A DNA stretch of 25,444 bases from a virus. Below, piece after piece: positions 11,574 through 24,510 of the stretch. Where the stretch lies: the IMG/VR virus record IMGVR_UViG_3300046167_000115, positions 1 through 25,444 of that record. One strand, 5' to 3'. The translations under genes and the position numbers were made by a program. The notes beneath the pieces are model-generated. The model saw only the letters and a program-made list of their open reading frames with translations, was not told where the DNA came from and did not search any database. The first letter of the stretch is position 1; every line of letters starts with the position of its first letter.

Positions 11574-14096
11574 TTAGGCGTCGATGTCTGTGATAGCAGC
11601 AAACGACTGGGCGTTACGAACACCCAAATCCATTTCCTGCATAACCCGGACGCGGACAGCACCAGTTGCGCTGTTCGTGTAAGGGTCAACCAGAACGTCG
11701 GCAGACGAGAACATGCCGATGATAAGTTGGCTAAAGTCGCCAAATACCAGAGCAGACAAGGCAGAACCAGTGCCTTTGGTCAGGTCAGACGGCACGTTGT
11801 TCGTGACGGCCATATTGTAACCATACAGGCTTGACCACGGGTCATTCAGGATTTGAACGCTGTCCGTGCTGCTTACTTTAGCAGTCTGAGCCAAGTGAGA
11901 TTTCACTTTGCTGTTTGTCAGGTATGCCATCGAGTCGGCAGACAGGCCAGCATTGTCGGCTTCAACTTCTTTGACCAAGTCAACAACCGAACCCCAAGTG
12001 GCTGCGCCACCGTTTGTGCCGATTGCAACTGAGCCAATGCCAGTTGTTTCCAAGATGCCATCAGGCTCGTTAGATGCGCCGCCTTTGATTGCAACTTGCT
12101 CGATTTTTTGAGCGATTGCGTTCAGAAGGTCGTCACGGATGATAGCTTCAACCGACGGGTCGGACTGGATCATCAGCAAACGAGACATATCGGTGAATGC
12201 ACCGAGCGACTTAGGCGAAAGTGTCAACTGACCGAAAGTCTGGTTTTGCTCGGCAACGGCGTTGTTTTCAGCAACAAAGCCAGCAGTAGCAGCAGCAGTC
12301 ATTTTCGGAATAGCAACGTCACCTTTAAGGCCAGACAAGAAGCGTGTGCCGAGGTCAGAGAATACCAAGCGCGAACGCAGGGCATCAATGAACTGGTCGC
12401 CACGGTGGTCTGTGCCAACGAGGAAGCCGCCATCGGCGTCTGTGCCAGCAATCAGGTCACGCTTGCCAGCCCAGAAGCTGTCAGGTGCGTAGAAGCCACG
12501 GGCTTCTTTACCGTTTTTGCGTGCAATCTCGTCGGAGACTTCGAGTTCCAGACCATTCAGGCCAGAACCGTTTACCAGACCACGAACAGCTTTCATGAAG
12601 CTGTAATTGCGGACTTCTTTTTCGCTCATGTCAACTGCACCAGCAGATTGCTCAAGGGCTTTGCCAGTCGGCAGGGCTTCCAACAACATGCCACGGAACT
12701 GGTCAACGCTCATGCCATCGGCAATAGCTTTGTCAGCAAGGTCACGTTTGTTGTGCTTAACGGCAAGAGCAGTAATCTCTTGCGCGGTTTTTTGAAATTC
12801 GCGTTTGGCGGCTTCAGTAGCTTCCAAGCGGATTTCGTCTTTATTTACTTCAGTCATTTCAATATCCTTTTTGACTTCAATAGTTTCGACAAATTCAGCA
12901 TTGCGGTTCACACCAACACCGGCATCGGCAGGAACTGATACAATACTTGCTTCGTATGGTTGCCACGAATTAACCGAAACCGTCCCGCTTCTTTCATTCT
13001 TTGCTTCCATATTTTTGACAATGTATCCGATACTAACGTTTCGGATTACACCACCCTTGACGTCCTCATACACTTCTCTTGCAAGTGCGCTTTTTCCAAA
13101 ACGCACAACCGCACGCAGCTTTCTATCTGCACGGTCAAGATAGGCTTCTTCGACAACGCCAATCTGCTTAGTCATGTCGTGGTCTTTCAGCAAGGGGGCG
13201 TTGCCACTTGCGATGCGCGACATGTCAATTGCTTCTTCGGTATGCTCAAGAACTTCCATACCAAAACTACGCTCGACGGGTTCTTCGCTTGATAGCGACA
13301 TGCGAACCCGGCGGTCATCTTCGTCTGTTGCTTCTACTTCAACAGCACGGAAAGTCAATTTTGAACGGTCAAAACCGTCGCGTTCCATTTCAACTTCCAT
13401 ATCATCTTCCTTATCGGTTTGTTCACGCTCTGGCATAGATTTGCCAAAGGTGACGATATAAGCATCTTCAGTTTCTTCGATTGCCTGAATATGCCGTTCT
13501 TCTTTTTTATCATATTCATTATCGCCACGAATGTCATTGATTTTACGCAGGGTGCTAAACTTGTGACCGACCAGCGTGTCAGTGGCTTCGTCATCGCGGT
13601 AAATGCGGATAAGCGCGGCGGGGTCTTCGGCTGTGCCTTCTACGGTGAAGTCAGAACCCGGCACGTTGATGTTTCCATCACGTTGGATGCGCTCGATGCG
13701 ACCACGGGCTGTTCCGCCACTGCTGTCCCAAGAAACAAAGTCACCGACGGTCAATGCGTCTGGTGCTGCACGTTCTTCATCTTTTTTTAACATCTCAGTT
13801 ATTCCTTTCGACCAAGTATATCCGGCGTTTCCTGACCACAAAGCCCACGCAATTCTGCCATTGGACGGATAGCCTTCTTCGCCCGGAGAAAAGCCTTCAG
13901 CCTGTTTGTCAACTTCGTGGCGACTAAAATAAGAATACATCCTTTTTACGGTATCTTCTGACAAATTTTTGCCATTAGAAATATCCCGCGCACGAGCAAT
14001 GCCAACTTCTGTGCCGCCGCGTCCGTGTTCGCGTCGCCATTCGAGGCCGCGCTTTGCTTCCTCAATCATTCCGTCGGTTGGCTTATAACTCGCCAT
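11574..14096 (-). CDS. Fused N-domain / Tudor-like / S78 prohead protease / HK97 major capsid protein
   Basis: This single 840-residue frame combines several domains. Residues 1-100 (GLEWRREHGRGGTEVGIARA, HEVDKQAEGFSPGEEGYPS, NGRIAWALW) form a domain often found with phage proteases. About 114-186 resemble a DUF2945/hypervirulence-type Tudor fold (VGDFVSWDSSGGTARGRIER). About 245-400 are an S78 prohead protease with the triad-like H306 (LLKDHD), S355 (RNVSIGY) and E382 (WQPYEASIVSVPAD). From about 414 comes an HK97-type capsid: delta-domain helices, then DADGGFLVGTDHRGDQFIDA and LPKMTAAATAG-like core, ending AQSFAAITDIDA. The ATG at 14096 has GGAGG nearby and overlaps the portal by 14 bases. 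An internal start at 12857 could also give the capsid alone. Protease and capsid are separate genes in most relatives. Confidence 0.92.
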   Translation of the reverse strand: MASYKPTDGMIEEAKRGLEWRREHGRGGTEVGIARARDISNGKNLSEDTVKRMYSYFSRHEVDKQAEGFSPGEEGYPSNGRIAWALWSGNAGYTWSKGITEMLKKDEERAAPDALTVGDFVSWDSSGGTARGRIERIQRDGNINVPGSDFTVEGTAEDPAALIRIYRDDEATDTLVGHKFSTLRKINDIRGDNEYDKKEERHIQAIEETEDAYIVTFGKSMPEREQTDKEDDMEVEMERDGFDRSKLTFRAVEVEATDEDDRRVRMSLSSEEPVERSFGMEVLEHTEEAIDMSRIASGNAPLLKDHDMTKQIGVVEEAYLDRADRKLRAVVRFGKSALAREVYEDVKGGVIRNVSIGYIVKNMEAKNERSGTVSVNSWQPYEASIVSVPADAGVGVNRNAEFVETIEVKKDIEMTEVNKDEIRLEATEAAKREFQKTAQEITALAVKHNKRDLADKAIADGMSVDQFRGMLLEALPTGKALEQSAGAVDMSEKEVRNYSFMKAVRGLVNGSGLNGLELEVSDEIARKNGKEARGFYAPDSFWAGKRDLIAGTDADGGFLVGTDHRGDQFIDALRSRLVFSDLGTRFLSGLKGDVAIPKMTAAATAGFVAENNAVAEQNQTFGQLTLSPKSLGAFTDMSRLLMIQSDPSVEAIIRDDLLNAIAQKIEQVAIKGGASNEPDGILETTGIGSVAIGTNGGAATWGSVVDLVKEVEADNAGLSADSMAYLTNSKVKSHLAQTAKVSSTDSVQILNDPWSSLYGYNMAVTNNVPSDLTKGTGSALSALVFGDFSQLIIGMFSSADVLVDPYTNSATGAVRVRVMQEMDLGVRNAQSFAAITDIDA
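12855..12869 (-). promoter_or_regulatory. In-frame internal ribosome site and ATG for capsid alone
   Basis: Inside the fused gene AAGGA (12869-12865) lies 7 bases before ATG (12857-12855), in the same frame, at Met414. This point is just after the protease domain and just before the helical delta-like region (MTEVNKDEIRLEATEAAKRE). Initiation here would give a 427-residue protein, close to the size of an HK97-type capsid precursor. The layout recalls lambda C/Nu3, where an internal in-frame start yields the scaffold. Activity is inferred. Confidence 0.6.
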
Positions 14097-15570
14097 CGTC
14101 CCCTCCGTCGATGCTTGGCGCGGCTGGCAACTTATTGCCAAACGGCTGGAACGCAGTCTCGATTTCGTAACGTGCGGCCAAGTCTTTCTCGCGCGCAACT
14201 TGCTCAAACACTTCTTCAGTGTCGCGGCCATTCTGACCGTGGACATCTTGCAAGGTCATAATACCGCTGTTGATTGCAGCGATGTTTGCGTTGACTTCTT
14301 TCTGCGGGTCAATGGCTGGGTAGCCACGCGGACGGTAAGTCACTTGGTCGGCAAACAGGTCATACTTAGACATCGGCAACGTGACCGCGTTGTAAGTGAT
14401 GGCTTGCTCAAGCCACGAGCGATAAACGTCATCGACAAAGTTCTCAATCATAAACTGCTGCAACATCTTAAAGTTGTCGCGGTCTTCCATCGTGCCTTGT
14501 CTGATGCTGCTGTAGCTAACGCCTTCCAAGTTATTAGAGAGCGACACATAGCTGACACCAAGACCAGAAGCGATGCCGCGCAAGATAGCTTTCTCGAAAT
14601 CTGCAAAGTCAGCACCGCCAACACCCGACGGGTCAAAACTTTCAAACGACATGCCTTCTGGCAACTGGCTGAACGTGCCGGGGCTTGCGTCCATCAATGG
14701 GGCTGCGCCGTCATAGTCGTCGCCAATAAACTCATCGCCAGACGGTGATGTAAAGAACCCCATTTTCGACGCAGCTACACGAGCATGAACCAAGCTGGCT
14801 TCCTCAAAACCGTCAAGCATCTTGAGGCGGCTTAACACGTTTGCCATCATCGGCACGCCACGGGTCTGGCCTGCACGCTCTTGGATGAAGGCGTGGATGA
14901 TTTCTTCGGCTGGCACGCGGATGCGCTTGCGTGCGCTCATGTTACGGCCAAAGCCATTGGTGTGGTTTGGGTTATCTTCAAACAACCAATAGGCAACGGG
15001 CTTGCCTTCTTTGGTAATCTCAACACCCATACGCACTTCGTTGCCACTCGGCGCGGTGTTGTTATAGTTCTCGTCTAAGTAGTCGGCTTCAATAAACTGC
15101 AACGAAAAGCCAAAGCGGTTGCCAGTAGGGTTCTTAATCTTGCGAACCAAGACCTCGCCATCACGCGCAAGCGTTTCGATGAACAAGCGTTGGCACTGAT
15201 TCCAAGTCAGGCGACCATCAATCGAGCAAGTGTCTTTGCGACCCCAAGATGACCAAGCATTTTCGACAACACGGTTGCCCGGCGAGTCGAGTGAGCCGTC
15301 TGCATTGCGCTTGCGAACTTGCAGGCGAACACCAGCAGAGCCGACAACATTGCTGTTCAAGATTTGAATATAACGCTTGGCATACGGGTCATTGCGCGAT
15401 ATTTCGCGGCAACGGTCACGCAAAATGCGTAAAGATGGGCTGATTTCGCTGTCAGCAGACAGTGATTGCGTGATAAAATCGGAGAAAAGACGGCCTGTTT
15501 CTGCGCCATAGTATGACCGCTTCATGTGTTTTGGCTTCTGTTTCGTGCGTAGAAAATCAAAAAATGCCAT
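14083..15570 (-). CDS. Portal protein (lambda gpB-like), 495 aa
   Basis: This 495-residue protein matches the lambda-type portal family (Phage_portal_2). Features: an N-terminal RDRCREISRNDPYAKRYIQI and NVVGSAGVRLQ; LTWNQCQRLFIETLARDGEV; the FGFSLQFIEADYLD segment; AEEIIHAFIQERAGQTRGVP; GLGVSYVSLSNNLEGVSYSS; and near the end the YPAIDPQKEVNANIAAINSG region with 'LQDVHGQNGRDTEEVFEQ'. Twelve copies form the channel at the packaging vertex. It follows the gpW-like gene by 3 bases and its stop lies within the next gene, as in lambda order. Full length. Confidence 0.95.
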   Translation of the reverse strand: MAFFDFLRTKQKPKHMKRSYYGAETGRLFSDFITQSLSADSEISPSLRILRDRCREISRNDPYAKRYIQILNSNVVGSAGVRLQVRKRNADGSLDSPGNRVVENAWSSWGRKDTCSIDGRLTWNQCQRLFIETLARDGEVLVRKIKNPTGNRFGFSLQFIEADYLDENYNNTAPSGNEVRMGVEITKEGKPVAYWLFEDNPNHTNGFGRNMSARKRIRVPAEEIIHAFIQERAGQTRGVPMMANVLSRLKMLDGFEEASLVHARVAASKMGFFTSPSGDEFIGDDYDGAAPLMDASPGTFSQLPEGMSFESFDPSGVGGADFADFEKAILRGIASGLGVSYVSLSNNLEGVSYSSIRQGTMEDRDNFKMLQQFMIENFVDDVYRSWLEQAITYNAVTLPMSKYDLFADQVTYRPRGYPAIDPQKEVNANIAAINSGIMTLQDVHGQNGRDTEEVFEQVAREKDLAARYEIETAFQPFGNKLPAAPSIDGGDDGEL

Positions 15571-19418: not shown

Positions 19419-19996
19419 AACGGTATCTCATCATCAAAGTGTTCATCGCCCTTGATGCCAACAACCTCAGCACCCGGAAACGCAATCTTAGCTGCATGAA
19501 CATCCATTTGACTGCGCCACGCACGCACAATGCGCGCGACCTCAATGACAGTATAGACTGGTAAGTCGGTCTGCGCCAATGTTGCGGCACTGTTATCTTT
19601 GGCGATAACTATCTGCATCTCATCCTTGCCATCTTCTTGTGGGGCAGTTGCGTGCCATAATTCTGGCGGAACTGCCCTATGACCGCTTGCAATCGCCTCT
19701 TTCTCTAGTGCAGCCCACCCACGCAGCATGACACCCGCACGCTGAATAACTAGGTCAACGTCCTTGTCATGCAGTGCCACATCCAGCTTTGCGCGTGCGG
19801 CCTCGAACTTAGCTGCTGTCTCAGGGCTGACTAAAGTTTCCAATCGGCCTGCACCCCATCGCAGTTCAATGTCAGCCGCAGCCGCGTCAAGCGGTTTAAG
19901 CGCACCGTTTATCTGGTCATACTGCCAGCCTTGCATCGGCACATAGTCATCCTTGCCGATTGCGTCCACATCATATCTGCTTTTGCGTTTTGTCAT
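19415..19996 (-). CDS. Conserved-looking phage protein, 193 aa, function unknown
   Basis: The product begins MTKRKSRYDVDAIGKDDYVP and has a helix-rich centre (VSPETAAKFEAARAKLDVAL, GVMLRGWAALEKEAIASGHR, VPPELW) and a C-terminal segment (YTVIEVARIVRAWRSQMDVH) that ends in an acidic DEHFDDEIPF. The DDEIPF end resembles the acidic tips of ssDNA-binding proteins, which bind partner proteins, but no OB fold is evident. The ATG at 19996 has AGGGGG 5 bases upstream and overlaps the preceding stop (TGATG). It sits between the replication and packaging genes. I do not recognise the family. Confidence 0.75.
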   Translation of the reverse strand: MTKRKSRYDVDAIGKDDYVPMQGWQYDQINGALKPLDAAAADIELRWGAGRLETLVSPETAAKFEAARAKLDVALHDKDVDLVIQRAGVMLRGWAALEKEAIASGHRAVPPELWHATAPQEDGKDEMQIVIAKDNSAATLAQTDLPVYTVIEVARIVRAWRSQMDVHAAKIAFPGAEVVGIKGDEHFDDEIPF

Positions 19997-20412
19997 CACA
20001 ACCCCCTAAACTTATCAATATCAAAATATGCGTGCAGCGACATATCATTCGGGTCATTCCTATCTGTCCTGCCGCCCATATCAATCGTGCAGTCATCTTC
20101 GAGGCATACATAGCCAAGCTGGTCTGTCCATTGCACGAATAGATACGACTTCACGCCAAAGTGCTTATTCACTTGCCGGGCATGTAGCACCTTCTCCATA
20201 CCAATCATCATGCTGTCATATTTTGCCATCGTATTGCGGCGGCACTTGATTTCGATAAGTGCCTTCAAGCCATCGGTGGTAAATGCTGCATAATCCATTT
20301 GGTTCAGTCGTGGCAACTTGACCATCATATAGCCACGCGCTTCTGTTATCAGTCGCGCCACAGCTTCCTCGTTTGCCACATCTGCTTTTGTCTCATATAT
20401 CGGTCTATTCAT
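19996..20412 (-). CDS. Small PD-(D/E)XK nuclease-like protein, 138 aa
   Basis: This 138-residue protein carries a recognisable nuclease core: an N-terminal helix with Glu (ANEEAVARLITEARG), MDYAAFTTDG with D40, and LIEIKCRRN with E54-x-K56, followed by GMEKVLHARQVNKHFGVKSY and a final beta segment. That is the D...ExK arrangement of PD-(D/E)XK enzymes. Its place right after the primase-helicase suggests replication or recombination intermediates as substrate. The ATG at 20412 is preceded by GGGGAAAGAT; an ATG four codons earlier lies at the edge of the palindrome region. Activity and substrate are inferred. Confidence 0.7.
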   Translation of the reverse strand: MNRPIYETKADVANEEAVARLITEARGYMMVKLPRLNQMDYAAFTTDGLKALIEIKCRRNTMAKYDSMMIGMEKVLHARQVNKHFGVKSYLFVQWTDQLGYVCLEDDCTIDMGGRTDRNDPNDMSLHAYFDIDKFRGL

Positions 20413-20426
20413 ATCTTTCCCCATTC

Positions 20427-20469
20427 TTCATACATACCCCCTATATAGGGGGGGTATGTAGTGTATGAA
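20427..20469. repeat. Long palindrome ahead of the PD-(D/E)XK gene
   Basis: TACATACCCCC (20431-20441) and GGGGGTATGTA (20450-20460) are perfect complements around an 8-base TATATAGG loop. A second outer pair, TTCATAC (20427-20433) and GTATGAA (20463-20469), is also complementary. There is no T-tract after either arm, so it is not a standard terminator. It could be an operator, a cruciform at an origin or an mRNA-processing hairpin. It fills most of the gap between the primase-helicase and the next gene. Confidence 0.75.
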
Positions 20470-20470
20470 T

Positions 20471-20508
20471 GTTCATGCCTAACCTTCATGTTACCTTCAT
20501 GCCTTCAT
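20471..20508 (-). repeat. ATGAAGG direct repeats (iteron-like)
   Basis: On the minus strand ATGAAGG occurs three times in 26 bases (20508-20502, 20500-20494, 20489-20483), with a degenerate fourth ATGAAC copy at 20476-20471. Spacings are 8, 11 and 13 bases. The first copy lies in the last codons of the primase-helicase gene. Short direct repeats next to a palindrome and beside a replicase gene recall iteron origins, but the copies are few and short. Confidence 0.5.
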
Positions 20509-22371
20509 ACCTATGTTGAATAAGCCATTGTTTTTGCTTAACAACTCTTTTGACACTAGGCGTGAAGTGAAATCCGACCATCCGCTGTCTGAATAGTTCT
20601 TACCATCAGCCGCAACAGCCCTTCTCAGCACATCTGAACGCACCCCTTTTGACCCATCTTCGTCGGTTTCGGTGAATGTGCCAGCCCGTAACAACTCCGC
20701 CAGAACGTCAATACACTGCTGCTGACCGTCGCTGAGTTTCTTGTTTTTAGGTATGCCATCGGTCACATCCAGCACCAGACTGCTTTGCTCTTGTGCAAAT
20801 GCGTCTTGCACAAATGCAACTTCACGCGCTGCCATAGCCAACGGGTCGGCCTCGGACACATCTTTCTGCTTCTGCACGATAACCTCAATATATTCCGTGC
20901 CAGTCGTGCGCTTAATGGCAATCGACGTATCAACCGCACCCAGCAGACTTGACGAACCACGCAAGCCCTTGTCGCTGTCTTTGCCGCTATGGTGAACGGC
21001 CAGCACAGTGCAATCAAACCACTCTTTCAGTAAATCGCACGACCGTATAAACATGCCCATATCGGTCGCGCTGTTCTCATCAGCACCAGACCCGGCAAAT
21101 GACCTTGCCAGTGTATCGACCACAATTAAGTCAGGTGACACACCGCCCAGCGTGTCCTCAATGGCTTGTCTCAGTTGTAATACATCTGGGGCATCTTCCA
21201 TTGCCATACCAATCGGCGTTGTAACGGCATAAAACGGCACACCCTCATCGCCAAGCTGCATGTCCCTGTGCCACGCTTCTGCACGCACAGCGATGCCTGA
21301 TTGGCCTTCCATAGCCAGATACACCACCGCACCCTGCGCGGTTGGCCGACCATTCCAGTCAACGCCGTGTGCTATCGACAATGCCCAATCAATCGCCAGA
21401 AACGACTTAAAACTAGCAGGTGCGCCATATAGCACCGCAAAGCTATTTTCTATGATATAATCCGCGACCATAAACGACGGCGGCGGTGTTGCACGCAACT
21501 CGCCTAGTGTTTTGACCTTGATTTTTCGTTGAGGAACTTCTGCAACGCTGCTGGATACGCTTGTTGGCGAACTGTCTTTGTTCGGCGCAATATGAATGTC
21601 TGCAATCTTGCCTTCTCGCGCTCGGATAATTGTGCTGGTAACTTTCTTTCTAAACTCATCAATCCCACGCCCTTCTGCGTTCAAATCGCCTGTGCGGCTT
21701 CCTACCTTTATTTCATATGTCGGGTAAACATTTTCTTCCATCCACTGCAACGTCGGAAAAGTGCCATTATCCCTAAAGAAGTCGGATATAGCAGCCAAAA
21801 CCATAGATGCCATATAATGTTCACGGCCATCAACACGCCGACCAAAAGCATCAAAAGCATCGCTACCCATAGGAACATCAAGACTTGCAGCAGCCACTCC
21901 GGTGGATTGCGCTGCAACCTTTGGAGGAAATTCCGCAAAGTCTTCATCGTTTACCCACCTATAACCAGTGCTTTCGGGGTGAATAACATAGCCTCCGTCT
22001 CCCCTGACATCGCAGCAACCGTCAATGCCAGCGCGGTTTCGAATACCAGAAACGTGCTTATAATAATAATGCCATCCACCTGATTGCGTTTCTGCGACCT
22101 TAGTGATGCCCAAAAGTTCCGCATTTTTCTCGACCCATTCCTTGCCTTGTTTACCGTCACGCACATCAATGTCGATAACTGACACGCCTGACACCTCGCC
22201 AGTCGGTATGCCGATTAGTGCGGCATTGCTGGCTGAAAATAAACGCTCGACCTCGTCCGGGTCTTGCGTAGCTGCTTTGAACCCGCCGTGGCAGACGGGT
22301 CGCTTTTTAGCGTCGCACGGGAAGACCGGGTAATCCTCGGCCACCTCTAATGCTTTGCTTATAATATCCAT
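20497..22371 (-). CDS. Bifunctional primase-polymerase with RepA-like helicase
   Basis: This 624-residue protein joins two enzymes. Residues about 1-150 are a PrimPol-type primase/polymerase domain: FPCDAKKRP, the metal-binding VIDIDVRDG (65-73), SGGWHYYY (98-104) and DVRGDGGYVIHPES (121-134). After a middle segment, about 300-540 form a RecA-fold RepA-like ATPase: Walker A LYGAPASFKSF (313-323), VVYLAMEGQ (348-356), Walker B DLIVVDTLARS (413-423), TVLAVHHSGKD (454-464) and RGSSSLLGAVD. The C-terminal part looks like a winged helix (VLRRAVAADG, DFTSRLVSKELL). Such proteins prime and unwind the phage origin. The ATG at 22371 has GGGAG 8 bases upstream. An upstream GTG lacks a site. Confidence 0.93.
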   Translation of the reverse strand: MDIISKALEVAEDYPVFPCDAKKRPVCHGGFKAATQDPDEVERLFSASNAALIGIPTGEVSGVSVIDIDVRDGKQGKEWVEKNAELLGITKVAETQSGGWHYYYKHVSGIRNRAGIDGCCDVRGDGGYVIHPESTGYRWVNDEDFAEFPPKVAAQSTGVAAASLDVPMGSDAFDAFGRRVDGREHYMASMVLAAISDFFRDNGTFPTLQWMEENVYPTYEIKVGSRTGDLNAEGRGIDEFRKKVTSTIIRAREGKIADIHIAPNKDSSPTSVSSSVAEVPQRKIKVKTLGELRATPPPSFMVADYIIENSFAVLYGAPASFKSFLAIDWALSIAHGVDWNGRPTAQGAVVYLAMEGQSGIAVRAEAWHRDMQLGDEGVPFYAVTTPIGMAMEDAPDVLQLRQAIEDTLGGVSPDLIVVDTLARSFAGSGADENSATDMGMFIRSCDLLKEWFDCTVLAVHHSGKDSDKGLRGSSSLLGAVDTSIAIKRTTGTEYIEVIVQKQKDVSEADPLAMAAREVAFVQDAFAQEQSSLVLDVTDGIPKNKKLSDGQQQCIDVLAELLRAGTFTETDEDGSKGVRSDVLRRAVAADGKNYSDSGWSDFTSRLVSKELLSKNNGLFNIGMKA

Positions 22372-22407
22372 TATACAAACTCCCACGTTTGTCCCCCTCG
22401 TATAGTC

Positions 22408-23064: not shown

Positions 23065-23487
23065 TTAAACCCCGAAGATGCGCTTGGCTTCACTACGCAT
23101 TATCGGGTCATTCCAGTAAAAGCTGGAATAGGATGGGGCGAAGATGCTGGCGAGTTCCCGCGCGTCATTCGACAACGATAGGAACGTCTCCATCTTCTTC
23201 ACCGTGACTTTATATTCTTCTAATATCTCTGCCGCCTCATCTTTATCGAGGTCATACACAGCAAACTTCTTTGGCGTGACGTAGCAGAACTTGATGTCAT
23301 AATCAGGCCGCATCGCTTGATACAGTGCGCCTTGCCGCTTGTGGTTATCCATTATTGCGCTGGGCAGTCTGCCAGTCGTCTTGAGGTCGATAGATAGATT
23401 GGGGTCGGTATAGCTAAAGTCATCGAACCCCATAATCTCGACCGGGGCAACCATCCAGCCGCAGCGATAGGCGCGTCTGTGTTGCAT
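23065..23487 (-). CDS. RecB/Cas4-like PD-(D/E)XK nuclease, C-terminal part
   Basis: This 140-residue frame holds the catalytic half: GFDDFSYTDPNLSIDLKTTG carries the first Asp and the DxK motif (ID-LKTT), then HKRQGALYQAM is the helical Q-x-x-x-Y motif of RecB-family nucleases, and YVTPKKFAVYDLD follows. The ATG at 23487 overlaps the stop of the preceding frame (TAATG), which could allow reinitiation. However, its first 17 residues do not fit the family, whereas another frame across 23489-23445 reads the expected NATQTRLSLRLDGCPVEI. The two parts therefore appear to be one 254-residue gene broken by two extra bases. Confidence 0.85.
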   Translation of the reverse strand: MQHRRAYRCGWMVAPVEIMGFDDFSYTDPNLSIDLKTTGRLPSAIMDNHKRQGALYQAMRPDYDIKFCYVTPKKFAVYDLDKDEAAEILEEYKVTVKKMETFLSLSNDARELASIFAPSYSSFYWNDPIMRSEAKRIFGV

Positions 23488-23831
23488 TAGGCTTGCCAAA
23501 TGGCTTTCATAGCTTCAATGCCATTGGTAACGTAACCAACAAGGTCTTCTCGCGCCTTGTCTCTGTCGCCGCCGTTTGTCAGCAACGCAGTATCTCTTGA
23601 GAACCGCTTGACAGCTAACTCAATGGCTTCTTCTACCGACAGCACCGCAAACTCGTCTGTCAAATATTGCTCGACACCATACTCAGCGGCTATGCCGCGC
23701 CACATGTTGACGTTGCTGCCACCTTTGATTTTCATCGGATAACGCAACAGCCACGCTGCCGGGTCTGTCCTAAACATATCAATGCTGCTGTAAGACAGGT
23801 GGCGTATGCCGTGTGCTTCGAACGCGCTCAT
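23487..23831 (-). CDS. RecB/Cas4-like PD-(D/E)XK nuclease, N-terminal part
   Basis: This 114-residue frame begins MSAFEAHGIRHLSYSSIDMF and has the N-terminal signature of the RecB/Cas4 nuclease fold: SYSSIDMFRTDPAAWLLRYP, then NMWRGIAAEYGVEQYLT, which holds the RG-x-x-x-E/H helix. It ends VTNGIEAMKAIWQA where family members continue. The ATG at 23831 has GGGAG upstream and overlaps the RusA stop (TAATG). Such nucleases process DNA ends in phage recombination. On its own this half lacks the catalytic motif. Confidence 0.85.
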   Translation of the reverse strand: MSAFEAHGIRHLSYSSIDMFRTDPAAWLLRYPMKIKGGSNVNMWRGIAAEYGVEQYLTDEFAVLSVEEAIELAVKRFSRDTALLTNGGDRDKAREDLVGYVTNGIEAMKAIWQA

Positions 23832-24190
23832 TATATATCTCCCTCTGCTCTCCAAATTGTGACATCGCAACCGTCGATGTCAGACCACATCATCGTGACC
23901 CTATTGGCAAGGCAATCGTCTGTGATGACCTTGCAATGCTGCAACACATCCATAACTGCCTTTGCCCTGTTATCAATGTCCATACGACGCTTGCTTGGCC
24001 GTCCGACAATGATTTCGATATTGAACGGATAGTCAATTTCTGGCCGTTGTTCTAATTCGAGTGCCAGCGTTACCTCAGCAATCCATTCAGTATATTTCTT
24101 GCTGCGATACATCCGTTTGCCAGATATGCGCCACAGGCGATTGACGCTTGGCGGTGTTGGCAGATGATAGCTGTAAATCTTATTTGCCAC
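23831..24190 (-). CDS. RusA-family Holliday junction resolvase
   Basis: The product, 119 residues from a GTG at 24190, shows the RusA pattern: LPTPPSVNRLWRISGKRMYR, a helical YTEWIAEVTLALELE, then PSKRRMDIDNRAKAVMDVLQ with the catalytic Asp cluster, HCKVITDD, and a final WRAEGDI. RusA dimers cut Holliday junctions formed in replication and recombination. The GTG is preferred because AAGG lies 7 bases upstream; two ATGs twelve and eleven codons earlier have no site and lie deep in the HTH gene. It overlaps the HTH gene by 11 bases and is coupled to the nuclease. Confidence 0.88.
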   Translation of the reverse strand: MANKIYSYHLPTPPSVNRLWRISGKRMYRSKKYTEWIAEVTLALELEQRPEIDYPFNIEIIVGRPSKRRMDIDNRAKAVMDVLQHCKVITDDCLANRVTMMWSDIDGCDVTIWRAEGDI

Positions 24191-24380
24191 GGTGCAACCT
24201 TGCGAAATCCATTGGGCTGACATCATTGTTTGTAACGTCCACCAGCTTCATTAGTGTATCAGGCCGGGGCATACGCTCACCAGAACGATACCGCGAAATA
24301 GCTGACCGACTGCAACCGACACGCTGTGCCATCTCGCCATCAGTCATGCCAGCCTTGTCCATCCACTCACTCAGACCCAT
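24180..24380 (-). CDS. Cro/C1-type helix-turn-helix regulator, 66 aa
   Basis: This 66-residue protein begins MGLSEWMDKAGMTDGEMAQR and carries a clear Cro/C1-type helix-turn-helix: MTDGEMAQRVGCSRSAISRY, then RSGERMPRPDTLMKLVDVTN. It has no dimerisation or cleavage domain, so it resembles a Cro-like repressor or an excisionase-type regulator more than a CI repressor. The ATG at 24380 overlaps the previous gene by 14 bases. It lies in the early region before the recombination genes, and may regulate them. Its operator is not identified. Confidence 0.85.
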   Translation of the reverse strand: MGLSEWMDKAGMTDGEMAQRVGCSRSAISRYRSGERMPRPDTLMKLVDVTNNDVSPMDFARLHRGK

Positions 24381-24510
24381 CGAAAGTCTCCACAATATGT
24401 TCGAGTTGCCAAGTTAGCTTCTCGACCAAGTCTTCATCTGTCGTGTTACCACGCATCCGTTTGGCATATGCAAGCGTTTGCCGCACTGCCTCTTTAAGGT
24501 CTTCATCCAT
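24367..24510 (-). CDS. Small acidic helical protein, 47 aa
   Basis: The frame reads MDEDLKEAVRQTLAYAKRMR, then GNTTDEDLVEKLTWQLEHIV and ETFDGSE. It is predicted to be two amphipathic helices separated by GNTTDE. The ATG at 24510 lies 8 bases inside the preceding gene, and the stop overlaps the HTH gene by 14 bases, a placement typical of real phage genes. There is no recognised domain. It might bind the HTH protein or another early factor, but no evidence shows this. Confidence 0.6.
   Translation of the reverse strand: MDEDLKEAVRQTLAYAKRMRGNTTDEDLVEKLTWQLEHIVETFDGSE

Follow-up and report, generated by a model that had tools for sequence, protein, structure and literature searches.

In the Sulfolobus plasmid pRN1 (PMC4234260), a single protein, ORF904, combines a Prim-Pol domain, a superfamily 3 (SF3) helicase and a C-terminal winged helix, and its gene is followed at once by a stem-loop that is required in cis. 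The fold of the stem-loop is preserved although the stem varies in sequence, the stem-loop functions when displaced, and the authors propose a similar arrangement for Bordetella phages. In SaPI Rep and SCCmec Cch2 (PMC7581432), the initiator helicase uses its C-terminal domain to read short iterons lying just past its own gene, and the RSF1010/IncQ plasmids (PMC4434180, PMC4234260) have a RepA helicase, iterons and two small hairpins, ssiA and ssiB, recognised by the primase. In Streptococcus phage Sfi21, the annotated origin (GenBank AF115103) covers 302 bp of non-coding DNA that immediately follow the primase/helicase gene. In this work, we analyse a comparable element in a single virus record (IMG/VR IMGVR_UViG_3300046167_000115; all 25,444 bases, hereafter the window), in which ATGAAGG repeats and a hairpin lie directly behind a gene encoding a Prim-Pol/RepA-type (AAA_25) helicase. 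This element is probably the origin from which the phage replicates, recognised in cis by the product of the gene that precedes it. All genes discussed are on the minus strand.

Like pRN1, the window joins Prim-Pol and a predicted C-terminal winged helix in one protein and has a stem-loop right behind the gene; unlike pRN1, its helicase is of the AAA_25/RepA type rather than SF3, and its hairpin spans about 30 nucleotides (nt) and is surrounded by repeats, whereas the pRN1 stem-loop is about 100 nt long and without iterons. With SaPI and SCCmec it shares short repeats directly behind the helicase gene, and its predicted winged helix would be the counterpart of their C-terminal readers. Its RepA-fold helicase (by Foldseek), iterons and small hairpin recall RSF1010, where, however, RepA, RepB' and RepC are separate, whereas the window has the primase, the helicase and the proposed DNA reader in one chain; a RepC-like gene was absent among the ten window proteins given to Pfam. 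The window element also differs from RSF1010 in following its gene at once. Sfi21 likewise has repeats (AGTAAC-type) behind a primase/helicase gene, annotated as an origin, but the gene before them has Pox_D5 and DUF5906 rather than AAA_25, and the compact CTWWAG hairpin is not seen there. The architecture is one known from pRN1, SaPI and SCCmec, and the helicase class and the hairpin are what is new here. Within the open-access literature, we found no paper describing such an origin for RepA-type phages and none containing CCCCTATAGGGG.

The first-pass annotation had reported three ATGAAGG copies and a partial further copy beside a palindrome with 11-bp arms and an outer pair, and all of these were located at 20424–20508, directly after the Prim-Pol/helicase gene as claimed (stop codon at 20497–20499; Table 1). 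The region had also been called non-coding, which holds for 20425–20496 and no further because the helicase gene runs into two of the three repeats at its end, one lying within its last codons (20502–20508) and one across its stop (20494–20500). The arms of the inverted repeat are perfect (11 nt, 20431–20441 and 20450–20460, loop of 8), and an outer 8-nt pair frames them (20427–20434/20462–20469). It is the sole inverted repeat in the window with arms of at least 10 and a loop of at most 8, and arms of at least 11 arose in 2 of 60 dinucleotide shuffles. ATGAAGG occurs at only two further places in the window and is the sole 7-mer found three times within 33 nt, with at least one such triple in 4 of 60 shuffles. 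Each taken alone, the repeat triple and the inverted repeat are only moderately rare.

Folded as single-stranded DNA, the hairpin has an energy of −13.5 kcal/mol (z −3.8). Such a strong stem between two co-directional genes would also suit an element acting at the RNA level, such as a terminator, an attenuator or a processing hairpin. We consider this highly improbable: there are no terminator-like sites (a G+C-rich stem and then a T run) at 20300–20700, an Rfam match is absent across the window, and neither the repeats nor the DnaA boxes found in relatives (see below) need an RNA explanation.

The argument for an origin starts from close relatives. A scan with the window helicase gave ten near-relative loci (L001–L010), nine of which (L001–L009) carry the element at the corresponding place directly behind the helicase gene. 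L001 and L009 hardly differ from the window, ATGAAGG is retained in L002 and L003 with different spacing and a shorter palindrome, and L004–L008 have ATGGATGG-type repeats at matching places, with the outer pair of the palindrome changing along and TATGGATGG occupying the place of the window's degenerate repeat at 20424–20432. Between close relatives, all repeat copies are thus switched in concert, ATGAAGG versus ATGGATGG, and in three whole relative records the repeat pair was found once per record. The tenth locus, L010, was first taken as lacking the element; this was overturned when L351, on the same contig, revealed a hairpin, accompanied by different repeats, some 200 nt behind the gene. 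Loss of the repeats in relatives with the same replicase had been proposed beforehand as the observation that would speak against an origin, and what we find is retention in nine of ten, with letters that change together and follow the winged-helix domain.

Comparison of the ATGAAGG group (window, L002) with the ATGGATGG group (L004, L008) shows where the proteins diverge: the helicase and Prim-Pol domains are 82–89% identical, the last 84 residues 32–41%. Within the two groups, identity over these residues is 81% and 70%, and it is 79% for L347 and L348, both with GTCAAC. In a larger set of 46 loci (the 1N2-2-like set, left of 80 once near-duplicates and loci with less than 300 nt downstream had been taken out), repeat similarity correlated with C-terminal identity when controlled for helicase identity (partial rank correlation 0.34, reached in 0 of 2,000 permutations), and the reverse control, repeat similarity against the helicase domain, gave 0.06. 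At 90–100% helicase identity, C-terminal identity is 86% for pairs with the same repeat (36 pairs) and 60% for pairs with no shared repeat (46 pairs). By these sequence comparisons, repeat identity follows the C-terminal domain and not the helicase domain. AlphaFold2 (AF2) models of the domain have the order H-b-b-H-H-b-b of a winged helix; Foldseek returned many winged-helix proteins among its matches, but these were weak (best E value 0.04), and a sequence search with the domain gave nothing firm. The predicted winged helix is probably the reader of the repeats.

The helicase itself matches Prim-Pol at residues 12–155 (4e-24) and AAA_25 at residues 297–472 (5.8e-39) in Pfam, and the best PDB match of its full model is RSF1010 RepA (1nlf, 2.5e-11; also 1olo and 1g8y). 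Across such helicases the N-terminal part differs, being Prim-Pol, PriCT_2 with Toprim, Toprim, DnaB-N or none recognised. Since the N-terminal primase varies while the element stays, the element goes with the helicase and its C-terminal domain rather than with the kind of primase.

We then surveyed helicase loci sampled independently of the palindrome (105 used, 100 with 350 nt downstream, 70 after near-duplicate removal). A hairpin with a CT..AG apex lies behind the helicase stop in 57 of the 70, compared to 2/55 upstream, 8/350 at random places and 5/350 in shuffles; any hairpin at all is present in 64/70 versus 107/350 elsewhere. The apex is missing in L353, L356, L357, L361, L377, L378, L383, L403, L406, L434, L438, L439 and L440, although an imperfect hairpin forms by eye in L353 and L356. 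Generic repeats and a hairpin occur jointly in 11/18 and 41/49 loci versus 0/90 and 4/245 elsewhere (three L331-type loci excluded), and both this joint test and the any-hairpin test are independent of the apex pattern. A DnaA box, TTATCCACA, is found behind the helicase in 24/70 loci, as opposed to 0/55 upstream, 4/350 elsewhere and 1/350 shuffles, and 23 of these 24 loci belong to the 1N2-2-like sample. Perfect boxes adjoin the repeats downstream of the helicase stop in L355, L360, L372, L382, L413 and L422, which suggests that host DnaA takes part in those lineages, and not visibly in that of the window.

When apex sites are chosen by the hexamer alone (CTTTAG, CTATAG or CTAAAG), their flanks pair at 65–77% over six positions and then fall to the background of 24%. 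At least five of the six flank pairs form in 37/62 sites versus 10/136 elsewhere, and the well-paired sites comprise 20 different arm sequences with up to four Watson–Crick pair types per position. An apex held fixed between compensating arms favours a structure that is folded or cruciform, or else strict dyad symmetry. The constant sequence CATACCCC..GGGGTATG, considered as a general feature, holds only in the window clade and some others; elsewhere the arms change and the apex alone lasts.

On the scale of whole genomes, the 250 nt behind the helicase have the highest repeat density anywhere in CRP-823, RHph_N65 and Vibrio phage 1.076.O, and repeat copies concentrate near the element in CRP-823 (11/13) and RHph_N65 (12/16). 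In Klebsiella phage IME279 one other stretch equals it in repeat density, and the hairpin there is the longest-armed of those found; in the window, two other stretches are equally dense.

An operator or autoregulatory site, which the first-pass annotation held to be equally possible, can now be weighed against these results. A phage regulator, for example the HTH_3 protein encoded nearby (24180–24395, Pfam), or the helicase itself would bind the repeats and control the downstream genes; the position between two same-orientation genes fits this, and repeats with a palindrome suit operators too. However, the downstream gene differs among relatives while the element is constant: compared by eye, PDDEXK_14 is retained in L001, L002 and L008 and replaced in L004 and L007, the two of L004–L007 with the next gene translated. 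Repeat identity, moreover, tracks the C-terminal domain of the helicase itself, a search for sigma-70-like promoters gave none at the element or palindrome, and the repeats form one cluster rather than copies at several promoters. An operator is less likely than an origin because the downstream gene changes while the element stays, whole phage genomes have the repeats clustered at this single place and 24 of the 70 surveyed loci have DnaA boxes next to the element; we judge it unlikely. The suggestion of a replication origin, by comparison, gains from the placement in relatives, the co-variation of repeats and C-terminal domain, and the same boxes.

Several observations weigh against the element being an origin, or against the generality of its form. 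The window has few exact repeats (three), and a DnaA box is not visible beside its element. Cumulative GC skew, recommended earlier as a check, runs one way in the window without an extreme near the element and likewise lacks one there in CRP-823, RHph_N65, IME279 and Vibrio phage 1.076.O, which lends no support either way. Only three of nine copies of the tested repeat lie near the element in IME279. The CT..AG pattern was formulated after inspecting the 70-locus sample, and although the first six named phages examined all have repeats and a hairpin, the apex test was passed by 4 of 13 further named records (RHph_N65, CRP-811, IME279 and, doubtfully, a Photobacterium plasmid) and the generic joint test by 3 of the 13. 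No apex hairpin was found behind the helicase in the actinophages Wooper, TPA2 and Baka, a cyanophage, Vibrio phage 1269, Pantoea phage PSKM and an IncQ2 plasmid, and the actinophages examined have neither repeats nor hairpin. Applied unchanged to cellular AAA_25 genes, the apex test gave 6/50 versus 8/250 elsewhere and 2/250 shuffles (50 of 55 loci, after dropping three without a helicase-profile match and two cut short; L441–L443, first found by palindrome, and L444 were excluded beforehand). The hairpin as a universal AAA_25 feature is rejected by this result. Generic repeats lie behind 28/50 of these genes versus 29/250 elsewhere; with repeats enriched and hairpins few, repeats are therefore widespread behind such helicases and the hairpin belongs to part of the family. 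One Klebsiella plasmid (L509:2503–2716; pKp_Goe_795-4, 17 kb) has many TGCGGCA repeats after its AAA_25 helicase and no hairpin.

Palindrome-core patterns were also scanned in viral and genome collections, giving 102, 113 and 111 stretches, for most of which an AAA_25 gene was not found on the DNA searched. These include loci from Saccharibacteria, Anaerolineae and others (L125, L126, L139, L164, L187 etc.), where the pattern may reflect chance or another system. Among the 63 listed loci that bear AAA_25, a redundant list in which some contigs appear twice, 28 loci are one family and the window and its relatives are included, the palindrome lies 34–157 nt behind the helicase 3' end in 56; the exceptions are L013, L056, L064, L092, L117, L310 and L322. 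By eye, the repeats differ by lineage: a Pseudomonas element has GCGTTAC, Paracoccus has CGGACA and the 28-locus family has CCGCA, with AGTCAC, ACGTTCGA, ATTCCC and others elsewhere. In the 28-locus family (L227, L229, L230 and 25 more), the spacing is strikingly constant, with the palindrome always 130–131 nt behind the helicase stop. The Pseudomonas element, which bears an integrase, has the same palindrome core behind a PriCT_2–Toprim–AAA_25 gene (L031:651–674, L116:6395–6418), accompanied by many GCGTTAC/GTAACGC repeats.

Packaging starts, partition sites and recombination sites also bear palindromes and repeats, and a putative small terminase gene, recognised by eye, lies about 2 kb downstream in the window. 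That the element is another cis site of this kind nevertheless seems a very slim chance, given that it accompanies the helicase in lineages whose neighbouring genes differ, and that the integrase-bearing Pseudomonas element has the same core behind its helicase.

Table 1 Features of the candidate origin and its neighbouring genes in the window
Feature	Position	Strand	Basis or remark
Prim-Pol/RepA-type (AAA_25) helicase gene, 629 residues, predicted C-terminal winged-helix domain	20497–22386	minus	Pfam and structural model
Winged-helix domain codons (residues 553–625), proposed repeat reader	20512–20730	minus	AF2 models; identity tracks repeat sequence
Repeat 1, ATGAAGG	20502–20508	minus	Within last codons of Prim-Pol/helicase gene
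Repeat 2, ATGAAGG	20494–20500	minus	Spans helicase stop codon
Repeat 3, ATGAAGG	20483–20489	minus	
Degenerate copy CATGAACAT	20469–20477	minus	
Inverted partner TTCATA	20464–20469		
Degenerate copy and inverted partner together (CATGAACATTCATA)	20464–20477	minus	
Hairpin/palindrome	20431–20460	no strand	11-bp arms, loop of 8 with TATATA; place and form conserved in L001–L009
Degenerate repeat TATGAAGAA	20424–20432	minus	Far side of hairpin
Next gene, PDDEXK_14 nuclease	19996–20424	minus	Pfam PF24579, 7.4e-36; other gene in L004 and L007

Elsewhere in the window, the overlapping open reading frames (ORFs) at 23065–23499 and 23487–23870 (minus) match the two halves of a single family, phrog_10230, so that the gene is either split or frameshifted, or the sequence contains an error. 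An 890-residue ORF at 11574–14246 (minus), overlapping a putative portal ORF, looks by eye like a fusion of prohead protease and major capsid protein.

Whereas the conserved placement, the concerted repeat switch, the compensatory arms, the tracking of the C-terminal domain and the DnaA boxes are computed, binding, melting, priming and replication are proposed. In the replication origin that we favour, the C-terminal winged helix of the Prim-Pol/RepA-type helicase would bind the ATGAAGG repeats, as the co-variation suggests. The RepA-type ring could then open the DNA at the palindrome, where the hairpin would extrude or fold with an exposed apex. By likeness to the RSF1010 ssi sites, we infer a role for this hairpin in helicase loading or priming, marking the place where the helicase loads, the start of the fused primase, or both. 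The host polymerase would take over, helped by DnaA in those lineages where its boxes point to it.

More tentatively, and at somewhat less than even confidence, we suggest that RepA-type (AAA_25) replicons of phages and islands may share one modular origin in cis. Its hairpin, near-constant at the CT..AG apex and preserved through compensatory changes in the arms, would load the helicase or start the primer irrespective of the primase fused in front (Prim-Pol, Toprim, DnaB-N or none), while the framing repeats would be rewritten with each change of the winged helix. Repeat and winged helix may then act as a rapidly diverging lock and key, preventing phages and satellites in the same cell from using each other's replicase.

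For most phages known only from metagenomes, the origin is undefined; here, an origin can be proposed from the sequence behind a RepA-type helicase gene. The pairing of repeats and winged helices offers a ready-made series from which to learn how the DNA code of initiators changes, and a fixed apex common to replicons with unrelated primases points to a step general to RepA-type helicases.
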